A DNA stretch of 64,000 nucleotides, from contig NC_092098.1 of assembly GCF_045679555.1 (NCBI RefSeq), positions 19,746,038-19,810,037 of the forward strand, read 5' to 3'. Within the stretch, counting starts at the first letter, position 1. Every line of letters begins with the position of its first letter. The DNA comes from Salvelinus alpinus (taxonomy: Eukaryota; Chordata; Actinopteri; Salmoniformes; Salmonidae). This document shows positions 1 to 60,607 of this stretch, piece after piece. The notes under the pieces were generated by a model, which searched no databases, had not been told where the DNA came from, and saw only the letters and a program-made list of their open reading frames with translations. A program made the position numbers and the translations under genes.

Positions 1-949
1 AATTTCAGACTTCAGTGAGTTCAAGACAACTGGGAACTGAAAGAAATGAGCTCCGATTGGGAAAATACATTTTGAACGGTCACCCAACTCGGAATTCCAA
101 GTAGGGAACTCGGGCCTCTTTCTAGAGCTCTGACCTGAAGATCACTTACGTCATGATTTAAACTTTTTCAAAATTCCCGGTTGTCTTGAAAGCACCATAA
201 ATCCAGAGAATGCCAGATTTTGATGACAAAGTTTGATGACGACATTTGCCCATTAGAAAGACTGCCGTGCCACCTTCCTGTTCAAGTGAGCAAAGCACAA
301 CAATGGTCCAAAAATGTCAGAAAAGTCCAAAAATGTCTTGTATGCTGCTGCATAAATTATGTAATATGCCAGGGAGTTATGTATACTATAGCTAAGAAAG
401 TAATACTAAGTGTATGTGTAACAGTATAACTTTAGACCGTCCCCTCGCCCCGACACGGGCGCGAACCAGGGACCCTCTGCACACATCAACAACTGACACC
501 CACGAAGCGTCGTTACCCATCGCTCCACAAAAGCCGCGGCCCTTGCAGAGCAAGGGGAAACCCTACTTAAGTCTCAGAGCAAGTGACGTAACTGATTGAA
601 ATGCTAGTAGCGCGTACCCGCTAACTAGCTAGCCATTTCACATCCGTTACACTCACCCCCCTTTCAACCTCCTCCTTTTCCGCAGCAACCAGTGATCCGG
701 GTCAACAGCATCAATGTAACAGTATAACTTTAAACCGTCCCCTCGCCCCGACACGGGCGCGAACCAGTGACCTTCTGCACACATCAACAACGGTCGCCCA
801 CGAAGCATCGTTACCCATCGCTCCACAAAGGCCACGGCCCTTGCAGAGCAAGGGGAAACCCTACGTAAGTCTCAGAGCAAGTGACGTAACTGATTGAAAT
901 GCTAGTAGCGCATACCCGCTAACTAGCTAGCCATTTCACATCCGTTACA

Positions 950-973
950 CTCACCCCCCTTTCAACCTCCTCC
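950..973 (-). other. Putative polypurine tract
   Basis: On the minus strand this stretch is purine-rich (GGAGGAGGTTGAAAGGGGGG, then TGAG). It lies immediately before the LTR start TGTAAC at 949. The same tract occurs at 652-675 before the third LTR. This is the expected position for plus-strand DNA priming in an LTR element. Confidence 0.6.
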
Positions 974-992
974 TTTTCCGCAGCAACCAGTG

Positions 993-1010
993 ATCCGGGT
1001 CACGGCACCA
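993..1010 (-). other. Putative tRNA-His primer-binding site
   Basis: The plus strand reads ATCCGGGTCACGGCACCA, which is the 3' end of tRNA-His including CCA, with one mismatch by my recollection of that tRNA. On the minus strand it is therefore a primer-binding site beginning one base after the LTR end at 1012. The equivalent site in the other spacer (about 696-713) is degraded. This is the key evidence that the array is an LTR retrotransposon and not a DNA MITE. Confidence 0.7.
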
Positions 1011-2565
1011 ATGTAACAGTATAACTTTAGACCGTCCCCTCGCCCCGACACGGGCGCGAACCAGGGACCCTCTGCACACATCAACAACTGACACCCACGA
1101 AGCGTCGTTACCCATCGCTCCACAAAAGCCGCGGCCCTTGCAGAGCAAGGGGAAACCCTACTTAAGTCTCAGAGCAAGTGACGTAACTGATTGAAATGCT
1201 AGTAGCGCGTACCCGCTAACTAGCTAGCCATTTCACATCCGTTACATATGTTGTGTAGTAAGCTGTTAGTAGCCCATGTGCCTCACCCTAATAATTTTGT
1301 CCCTTTCCCCCTCAGAACTTATCCTACTGTTCTGACTTGGTGGTGCACATGTAGCCTATAGCATGTTTTAGAGAAATGTTATCACTGAATATTGTTAGAG
1401 CTTTCATTGTCTGCTTAAATGCCCCCTTTATTTATCCTATGGTTCTGACTTGGTGTACAGGGAGAATACTGTAAGAATGGCCCATGTTCTGAATTCTGTC
1501 CTGTACATTTCAAGTGCTGAACAAATATATTATATAGTTATATTGACTACATCCATCTTAGCTCGCTCATTAATGTCTTAATCGAAATTACAGATTGCCT
1601 CTTTATCACTCATCAATCCCTTATGCCATAGTTTGTACATCTCAATTGTTATAGGCCTATTGCTTATATAAGTCTAGCTCATTGGTATCTTATTCATAAT
1701 TTTAGGCAATGTTGGAATGATTTCATTGTTTTGCTAACTTTGTGTATTATAATTAGCTCATGTGCTTTTCTTGAGAAGATACTATATAATGTTGTTGAGT
1801 CTGTAACCATGTTTGCCAGTAATTCCATATTGCGAAGGTTGTGTGTCAGTATATTGTCTATGAAAGTGGATCTTCATGATTGTATTTTCCTTCCCTTTTA
1901 GACCACATATGCCTAATAAAATACTTAAAATGGTAGACTTACCGTCTCTCTCGCGCTGTCTCGCTCTCTCTCTCTCTCTGTGGTGACTTAAAGAAGAGTA
2001 AAGTTAAGGCTGCAACATCTTGCTGAATATATCTGAACTAACATCTATCTGAATTTCTGTCGAGGTCCATTTTGAAAGTGCTGAAGGAATAGTCCTACCT
2101 CGTCGCAGCTCGTTTGCTTTCACGTGCTTATACTTAGAGCGAAGTGTTAATAATATAAGAATAAACATTATGAATTTGTGAAAATAAATGTAATAATGTT
2201 TGTATATGGTTCAAAAGTCAAAACAAATTTTGGAGTTTGTTATTATTGAAGGAGAATGCGGTTCTTATCGACTTACCCAAATCCACAAGGAGTCAGTAGT
2301 AACCACATTTGTTTAAGCAAGTCAGCCATATCAGCTACAGTTGAAGTCGGAAGTTTACATACACCTTAGCCAAATACATTTAAATTAAGTTTTTCACAAT
2401 TCCTGACATTTAATCCTAGTAACATTTCCCTGTCTTAGGTCAGTTAGGATCATCACTTTATTTTAAGAATGTGAAATGTCAGAATAATGGTAGAGAGAAT
2501 TATTTATTTCAGCTTTTATTTCTTTCATCACATTTCCAGTGGGTCAGAAGTTTACATACACTCAA

Positions 2566-32406: not shown

Positions 32407-32644
32407 TGTAACGGATGTGAAATGGCTAGCTAGTTAGCGGGTACGCGCTAATAGCGTTTCAATCAGTTACGTCACTTGCTCTGAAACCTAGAAGTAGTGG
32501 TTCCCCTTGCTCTGCAAGGGCCGCGGCTTTTGTCTAGCGATGGGTAACGACGCTTCGTGGGTAACTGTTGTTGATGTGTGCAGAGGGTCCCTGGTTCGCG
32601 CCCGAGGTCGGGGCGAGGGGACGGTCTAAAGTTATACTGTTACA
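32407..32644 (+). mobile_element. Solo LTR of the TRIM-like element, plus orientation
   Basis: It begins TGTAACGGATGTGAAATGG, ends TTATACTGTTACA and is homologous over its length to the 235-bp repeats at 417-1246. Perfect CCTG duplications flank it (32403-32406 and 32645-32648). A single LTR with its own duplication is what LTR-LTR recombination leaves. Confidence 0.82.

Positions 32645-39066: not shown

Positions 39067-60607
<21,541 letters not shown>

Follow-up and report, generated by a model that had tools for sequence, protein, structure and literature searches.

The window analysed here is a stretch of 64,000 nucleotides of Salvelinus alpinus DNA (NC_092098.1, positions 19,746,038 to 19,810,037 of the forward strand). 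Between positions 413 and 1250 it carries an array of the form LTR-spacer-LTR-spacer-LTR that is enclosed by one TATG duplication, and the transposon sense is the minus strand. Read on that strand, the order is 5' LTR, exact primer site, purines, middle LTR, altered site, purines and 3' LTR. The features of the array and of its two relatives in the window are as follows.

413 to 416, no strand: left target site duplication, 4 bp, TATG (sequence and alignment)
417 to 651, minus strand: 3' LTR (transposon sense), 235 bp, TG...CA
652 to 714, minus strand: second spacer, 63-bp form, with altered primer site TTGATGCTGTTGACCC and polypurine tract
715 to 949, minus strand: middle LTR, 235 bp, TG...CA, with 11 differences from each outer LTR
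950 to 1011, minus strand: first spacer, 62-bp form, with exact primer site, second tRNA-His complement and polypurine tract
950 to 977, minus strand: purine-rich tract, ending in GGGGGGTGAG and adjoining the middle LTR
978 to 988, minus strand: second tRNA-His complement, GGTTGCTGCGG, exact to the anticodon arm/variable loop and colinear with the primer site (alignment, duplex energy)
993 to 1010, minus strand: primer binding site, 18 nt, exactly complementary to the 3' end of host tRNA-His including CCA
1012 to 1246, minus strand: 5' LTR (transposon sense), 235 bp, TG...CA, same as the 3' LTR (LTR alignment)
1052 to 1062, minus strand: box-B-like GGTTCGCGCCC, LTR 185-195, one mismatch
1111 to 1122, minus strand: weak box-A-like TGGAGCGATGGG, LTR 125-136, two mismatches
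1131 to 1150, minus strand: LTR 97-116, putative interval of the RNA 5' end (start of R)
1247 to 1250, no strand: right target site duplication, 4 bp, TATG (sequence and alignment)
32407 to 32644, plus strand: solo LTR, 94% to the family, duplications CCTG/CCTG
43477 to 43697, minus strand: older solo LTR, 81% to the family, duplications CCAG/CCAG, with exact box B GGTTCGANNCC

An earlier reading of the letters alone (the sequence-only reading) had described three 235-bp TG...CA LTRs, two spacers of 63 and 62 bp and a single TATG duplication; coordinates and alignment agree with it, and the array as an observation is confirmed. LTR1 and LTR3 are 100% identical, LTR2 is 95.3% identical to both, and the two spacers are 95% alike. 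The purine tract that had been reported on one side of each spacer is present in both, where it ends the spacer and adjoins the next LTR. Coding capacity is absent, as the reading frames that overlap the array reach only 53-69 aa. The locus combines the features by which TRIMs are recognized: paired direct TG...CA LTRs within less than 1 kb in total, a primer site, a polypurine tract, a 4-bp duplication and no coding capacity. No ribozyme match was obtained in window positions 400-1260 up to E = 10, so the hammerhead ribozyme of a retrozyme was not found there.

On the minus strand, the 950-1011 spacer begins with TTGGTGCCGTGACCCGGAT, the last 18 nt of which exactly complement the 3' end of tRNA-His plus CCA. 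The host tRNA-His genes were located by a pattern based on human tRNA-His, and the four copies read are all identical. The primer site that had been called "near-perfect" is real, and the match was understated: aligned to the genome's own tRNA-His, it is perfect over 18 nt. The complement halts adjoining tRNA-His position 58, which in tRNA is a methylated A. In the 62-base spacer, the 18-nt site is followed by four bases and then by 11 exact bases that complement the anticodon arm, in the right order; in two older copies (L099 and L101), 38 exact bases antisense to tRNA-His are followed by a short purine-rich stretch that leads to the next LTR. Paired with tRNA-His, the first 46-47 bases of the spacer have a duplex energy of -68.0 kcal/mol in the 62 form and -55.3 in the 63 form, while the best of 200 shuffles of the 62 form reached -44.8 kcal/mol. 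In short, an extended tRNA-His primer site and a polypurine tract make up nearly the whole spacer. The sequence-only reading was silent on this extra tRNA complement, as it was on the tRNA-like box in the LTR and on the origin of the array.

The family was searched for in the host genome, which comprises 2.37 Gb in 928 contigs. Junctions between the purine tract of a spacer and an LTR occur 1640 times at up to two mismatches, compared with 0 for the reversed pattern. The exact junction of the 62 form was found 325 times and that of the 63 form 1375 times; the primer site thus belongs to the family, with the altered form being the commoner one. The whole 830-bp array used as a query gave 48 match rows at 94-100%, with 40 candidates scored of 2428 from a first look; within the same 40, 39 further genomic places match at 94-98%, 35 of them over all 830 bases, and for this reason the array is not a product of chance. 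Among 100 junctions listed, 11 same-strand clusters with hits 296-364 bases apart were counted by eye, from which at least about one locus in eight is tandem.

Including the window, 66 complete insertions were read: 24 with two LTRs (whole copies of 501-547 bp), 33 with three, eight with four and one with five. A 4-bp target duplication accompanies 59 of the 66 (chance rate for a 4-bp match, 1/256); 58 of these are exactly 4 bp and one matches at 4 and 6, and the other seven insertions have no duplication at any length of 3-7 bp. The duplications, which favour pyrimidine-W-W-purine, are found in 20 of the 24 two-LTR copies and, as a single duplication, in 39 of the 42 complete arrays with at least three LTRs. 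They match in 26/30 copies of the pattern list, that is, copies picked via the purine-tract/LTR junction, in which the purine tract is present by construction; the tract is found also in copies chosen by whole-array likeness and belongs to the family. A hold-out of 12 loci contained 10 complete insertions (L103 and L108 are incomplete and were left out), nine of them with a duplication. Most arrays came from the whole-array likeness search, which favours arrays like that of the window. Truncated copies and second ids of the same insertion (L013, L023, L024, L034 and L069) were left out of the counts, and the old diverged copies L080, L091, L092, L093 and L101 were left out of the half-LTR counts described below.

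These results support the proposal of the sequence-only reading that the locus is a TRIM-like layout duplicated to LTR-int-LTR-int-LTR. That reading had named three observations that would speak against it, namely copies without paired LTRs, duplications of inconsistent length, and a primer site and purine tract absent from the family; all three were looked for, and it passed. The solo LTRs that it expected exist as well: the two other family members in the window are of this kind, each flanked by a perfect 4-bp duplication. In the literature searched, to which subscription papers were mostly external, no earlier account of the present family in salmonids was found. A salmonid LTR-like repeat was reportedly the subject of an earlier paper by Moir and Dixon, and it may or may not be the element of the window.

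Comparison of the LTRs within arrays bears on the way in which an array arises. In 9 of 39 arrays with duplications, the window's among them, the outer LTRs are identical and the inner ones are 4-15 positions off. Compared with the mean distance from the ends to the middle, the distance between the two end LTRs is smaller in 26 of the 39 arrays, equal in 3 and larger in 10 (Wilcoxon p = 0.0005); this set contains L015, which shares flanks and duplication with L014 and is not among the 66 insertions. In the 33 three-LTR arrays, three of which are without a duplication, the odd LTR is the middle one in 20, the 5' one in 5 and the 3' one in 3, with 5 ties, and private sites number 57, 191 and 60 in the 5', middle and 3' LTRs, respectively. 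The middle LTR is also the odd one in 6/7 three-LTR arrays of the pattern list. Where spacers are mixed, the exact primer site is confined to the 5'-most spacer in 9/11 arrays (the exceptions are L042 and L050), which fits restoration there by the tRNA primer (primer refresh); all 11 were obtained with the window-array query, exact site first, so that the share of A-B-A arrays and the spacer order are biased to the window's pattern.

Because its outer LTRs are identical, its middle LTR is 4.7% off and the same pattern is repeated in the family, the array of the window was most likely reverse-transcribed and inserted as one unit. A fair share of the family's arrays, too, is better explained by insertion as a unit. 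Later crossing-over seems to occur too: the middle LTR is intermediate in L052, L053 and L067, resembling the outcome of unequal crossing-over after insertion. Seven arrays that are nearly uniform, and L042, an A-B-A-B array with unlike ends, also count against insertion as a unit.

Recombination among copies is evident in the LTRs, which are mosaics of a few blocks. Linkage decays with distance, r2 being 0.33 for sites no more than 10 bp apart and 0.01 for those separated by 51-100 bp. All four combinations are present in 68/105 site pairs; recurrent mutation could add some of these pairs but hardly the blocks. For 15 of 16 divergent middle LTRs, some other insertion has an LTR that differs from them at 0-3 positions; the exception is L048, whose nearest is 10 differences away. 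Two insertions with different duplications, L054 and L065, have an identical middle LTR that is matched this closely by no other insertion, which hints at a shared tandem parent.

In canonical reverse transcription, both LTRs of an insertion are identical. The end LTRs of the present family often are not, and they differ mostly in one half. Two or more differing diagnostic sites were taken as a difference of that half, with sites 45-96 representing U3 and sites 116-217 representing R-U5. Among 64 insertions, the end LTRs differ only in R-U5 in 31, only in U3 in 3, in both in 4 and in neither in 26 (p = 8e-7). With the hold-out added to this first sample, R-U5-only exceeds U3-only by 35 to 3 of 74 insertions; the hold-out itself (10 complete insertions) gives 4 to 0, with one insertion differing in both halves. 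The same excess is seen in two-LTR copies (13 to 1 of 22), in the pattern-list subset (16 to 2 of 30) and in copies with at most one other difference (11 to 1 of 36). In three-LTR arrays, the ends are 0.18 U3 differences apart per array as against 2.56 between middle and end, and the corresponding R-U5 values are 2.36 and 3.52.

The change from shared to unshared sequence can be followed along the LTR. Expressed relative to chance pairs, the two ends differ by 0.00-0.28 at sites 45-96 and by 0.36-0.66 from site 116, apart from 1.14 at site 177. Thirty copies differ in R-U5 and not in U3; in 12 of them the differences start at site 116, and in the others further along. The 5' end of the RNA, that is, the start of R, probably lies within LTR 97-116. 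The end LTRs of L018, L042 and L105 differ in both halves. The element kind itself is known; what is new beyond the sequence-only reading is the half-LTR rule, by which end LTRs usually agree in U3 and often not in R-U5. Neither this rule nor the primer-bypass reading set out below was found in the literature searched.

We consider it probable that the family is a TRIM resembling Helenus, and that its three-LTR arrays are made in reverse transcription from two co-packaged RNAs and inserted once. A foreign LTR element would supply the proteins to the non-autonomous TRIM. With RNAs A and B packaged as a pair, tRNA-His would prime RNA A, and the strong-stop DNA would jump via R to the 3' end of RNA B. 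The minus strand would then copy B, pass through B's primer site into U5 and R, and reach B's 5' end; as the strong-stop jump came from A, the 5' end of B would still be intact, and this is why the minus strand could pass B's primer site. A second jump by R to a 3' end would produce LTR-spacer-LTR-spacer-LTR. Alternatively, pairing by R with plus-strand U3-R-U5 DNA would produce a two-LTR copy with a mismatched R-U5-primer region, later settled to A or B. Steps of this kind would leave the outer LTRs with a shared U3, and their R-U5 could stem from A at one end and from B at the other. Directly observed are the single duplication of each array, the identical end LTRs, the half-LTR pattern, the recombination between copies and, in one insertion, the copied mature tRNA-His; the pairing of RNAs in the particle, the sequence of jumps, RNA polymerase III and the helper belong to the proposed model.

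Other explanations have been weighed against the same data. Two-LTR insertions could have grown later if LTRs on sister chromatids or homologues underwent unequal crossing-over, which is among the usual explanations in plants, as given in the accessible parts of PMC7215508 and PMC11899658, and would suit the intermediate middle LTRs of L052, L053 and L067 as well as the seven nearly uniform arrays. It would not readily produce identical outer LTRs with a middle one 11 differences away, as in the window, nor an exact primer site only in the 5' spacer of 9/11 mixed arrays, nor a U3 that is common to the ends but not to the middle; the LTR distances of the window array speak against it, and while it holds for a minority of loci, we regard it as unlikely to be the general origin. 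As under the two-RNA steps, identical ends around a different middle would be expected if arrays served as master elements: a tandem copy in the genome would be transcribed in its entirety, with read-through at the inner LTR, and would re-insert repeatedly. Concatenated transcripts have been reported for Cassandra (accessible part of PMC7215508), and the identical middle LTR of L054 and L065 at different duplications agrees with such a parent. Most middle LTRs, though, are not one lineage but are near LTRs of unrelated insertions, ends and middles swap roles between loci, and a T-run polymorphism at which read-through might become possible is not enriched in middles (C in 21/52 middle LTRs and in 31/84 tandem ends). 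A master element of this type is also unlikely as the source of the arrays. A single tandem master behind all arrays is not supported by the kinship of the middle LTRs, even though L054 and L065 share one. The idea that the T-run at LTR 120 controls read-through into arrays was not supported either, given the lack of enrichment in middle LTRs.

The unlike R-U5 halves might owe nothing to reverse transcription if gene conversion between genomic copies had introduced them after insertion. The family is large and its members similar, so conversion is possible, and L018, L042 and L105, which differ in both halves, are what it might leave behind; against it, the pattern is already present in insertions with at most one other difference, and 12/30 of the R-U5-differing copies without a U3 difference differ from site 116 onwards. 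We judge gene conversion to be rather improbable as the cause. As for the kind of element, short length, many copies and a box-B-like motif in the LTR would also suit a SINE or MITE that had been mistaken for an LTR element, a reading to which the paired LTRs, primer site, purine tract, fixed 4-bp duplications and solo LTRs leave practically no room. SINE identity, with a single unit, an A-rich or repeat tail and duplications of variable length, is ruled out by the paired LTRs and the fixed 4-bp duplications.

The two-RNA steps that we favour also predict alike R-U5 halves in copies whose primer site has been restored. In the first sample, unlike R-U5 was found in 1/13 exact-site and 36/51 altered-site copies (p = 5e-5; 1/13 and 34/51 with a stricter site list). 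Exact-site copies are younger on average; among young copies the counts are 0/12 exact and 13/24 altered (p = 0.002), and among two-LTR copies alone 0/2 and 14/20 (p = 0.12). The small hold-out did not repeat the link (3/5 exact and 2/5 altered), and the pooled counts are 4/18 and 36/56 (p = 0.003). The test is weakened because exact-site RNAs also exist as templates, and the link between primer-site form and R-U5 likeness is suggestive.

Traces of the primer itself are preserved in a few insertions. L098 is complete, with TAGA on both sides, and after its 5' LTR it contains 75 nt that are antisense to the entire mature tRNA-His, including a complement of its CCA. Since the four tRNA-His genes read continue downstream with TTG rather than CCA, it was the mature tRNA that was copied. 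Beyond the tRNA copy lie about 20 bases of LTR end (U5), 13 of which, TAAAGTTATACTG, are as in the family, and then a normal 63-form spacer with the altered site. Canonical minus strands stop at the primer site; the U5 past the tRNA copy suggests that the partner strand ran beyond it. L098 is a single copy and could instead be an array that has lost most of its middle LTR. In L083, the LTRs are identical to the outer LTRs of the window, and tRNA-His sequence in sense orientation comes after the 18-nt site. A complete insertion that contains a full tRNA copy documents, as a fossil, the identity of the priming tRNA.

From these data we tentatively propose that the minus strand of this family regularly bypasses the primer site, reads through U5 and R of the second RNA and resolves by R, a proposal that we hold to be slightly more apt to fail than to stand. 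If it is true, the two LTRs of new insertions differ in R-U5 from the outset, a mutated primer site is passed on where the tRNA would otherwise have restored it, and this one step also yields the arrays as a side product. If such bypass is general for short-LTR TRIMs, the divergence of their LTRs cannot serve as a clock, and genome sequence by itself reveals where the RNA starts.

The position of the RNA start can be compared with promoter-like motifs in the LTR. Among five older copies tested, box B is exact (GGTTCGAGCCC) in two, the window copy at 43477-43697 and L080, and in each case 0/200 shuffles reach it (all box shuffles used an approximate procedure). L092 and L101 each have box B with one mismatch in one LTR, and the truncated LTR of L092 is without the box. 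In young LTRs box B has one mismatch, a score reached by 2-6 of 200 shuffles; the weak box A and box B together are reached by 13/200 shuffles for LTR3 of the window and by 0/200 for the 43477 copy. The Rfam tRNA model had no match in the LTRs given to it, and ARAGORN found no tRNA in the window. The interval LTR 97-116 precedes the box-A-like motif at 125 by 9-28 bases, a spacing in keeping with a promoter of the tRNA type, and transcription by RNA polymerase III is plausible on these motifs.

An autonomous LTR element sharing the primer site, for which the sequence-only reading had proposed a search, was not found by the primer-site pattern: of 18 places, 13 were opened (L079-L086, L092 and L098-L101) and none was identified as such a partner. 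The first eight of these (L079-L086) comprise three with family LTRs and five without. Three 8-kb candidate stretches were read further: ten open reading frames from two of them were without gag/pol matches in Pfam, and tandem repeats make up most of the third.

The comparison with known systems covers the accessible parts of PMC10886601, PMC7215508, PMC4717578, PMC5668417 and PMC11899658, together with PMC1950507. Helenus TRIMs (TRIMp3) carry a tRNA-like sequence in the LTR and have 4-bp duplications in animals, and the primer tRNA of their vertebrate members is among His, Leu and Lys (PMC10886601). One of them, LTR-11_DR of zebrafish, has thousands of copies and forms tandem arrays, so that the remark of the sequence-only reading that TRIMs are best known from plants needs qualification: TRIMs, tandem ones included, were already known in animals (PMC10886601). 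The present family is like Helenus and LTR-11_DR in its short LTR pair, 4-bp duplications, tRNA-His primer, tandem arrays and putative RNA-polymerase-III-like box B, and unlike Helenus in that its box A is weak and its box B has one mismatch in young copies. The accessible part of PMC10886601 does not describe a half-LTR rule or a tRNA copy of this kind for Helenus, and salmonids are absent from its species table (Table 1). Compared by description, the family resembles Helenus, with LTR-11_DR as its closest known counterpart; membership in Helenus is unproven, given how weak the tRNA-like promoter is.

Tandemly arrayed TRIMs are common in plants, for example L3I2 and L5I4 with one target duplication (PMC4717578, PMC7215508). 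They share with the present family three or more LTRs, shared inner LTRs and one duplication, as in 39/42 of our complete arrays; the maize examples have 5-bp duplications as opposed to 4 bp here (PMC4717578). The LTR of Cassandra has a polymerase III promoter, with which the box-like motifs of the present family may be comparable, and the origin of Cassandra arrays was left between recombination and template switching (PMC7215508). For tandem LTR arrays in general, the accessible texts leave insertion as such or later recombination undecided (PMC11899658, PMC7215508). With many arrays that have duplications and with segregating LTR haplotypes, the origin of an array becomes decidable copy by copy in the family described here. 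A shared U3 with an often unlike R-U5 breaks the identical-at-birth assumption of LTR dating, at least in this family, and the half-LTR pattern provides a map of the RNA 5' end from sequence only.

Recombination between copies has a parallel in Onsen of Arabidopsis, a family of LTR retrotransposons that is mobile in plants under heat stress: there, too, family members recombine at high frequency, which was attributed to reverse transcription (PMC5668417). Recombinant LTRs of Onsen were seen in extrachromosomal DNA, and the accessible part of that paper describes no arrays or primer-site fossils. A precedent for the proposed jumps is a set of four long-element complexes from Triticeae, rice and maize, for which template switching between two RNAs was proposed (PMC1950507). 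These have the same LTR-core-LTR-core-LTR layout, one duplication, alike outer LTRs and the same proposed R jump; they are four cases, of long elements, with no half-LTR pattern. The model of PMC1950507 predicts identical outer LTRs, and in the present family this prediction fails for R-U5 in 40/74 insertions.

The middle LTRs of two three-LTR insertions of the family in the host genome (loci L054 and L065) are identical to each other and unlike the others read, and the target site duplications that flank these insertions differ, being CTAG for L054 and CAGC for L065. The shared middle LTR possibly reflects one tandem parent that moved twice. Unlike LTRs were also observed within a two-LTR copy:

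1273-1809 of locus L018: copy with a pair of LTRs, one at 1275-1509 and the other at 1573-1809, duplication CTGT

The differences between this pair fall at 10 diagnostic sites (the LTR positions used for the half-LTR counts) and at no other sites, and both the U3 and the R-U5 halves are affected.

Rearranged copies were encountered as well, namely an inverted (fold-back) copy at L033:1279-1684, in which two spacer parts lie head to head, and an array of four LTRs at L022 (G000:C1:55973221), with an additional stretch of about 55 bp inside its 5' LTR. At L083:1506-1571 (G000:C8:87067233), the spacer is a variant in which the exact 18-nt primer site is followed by sense tRNA-His sequence (AGTGGTTAGTACTCTGCGG); the LTRs of this copy are the same as the outer LTRs of the window.

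Elsewhere in the genome, G000:C17:46888352-46912148 holds 18 successive matches, about 1.4 kb apart, to the 5' portion of tRNA-His; they start with GCCATGATCG and stand apart from those of the standard GCCGTGATCG form.

By its motif, window 2338-2400 resembles the terminal repeat found in salmonid transposons of the Tc1/Sleeping-Beauty type; an HTH domain of Sleeping Beauty was found at another locus, L089:6937-7464.
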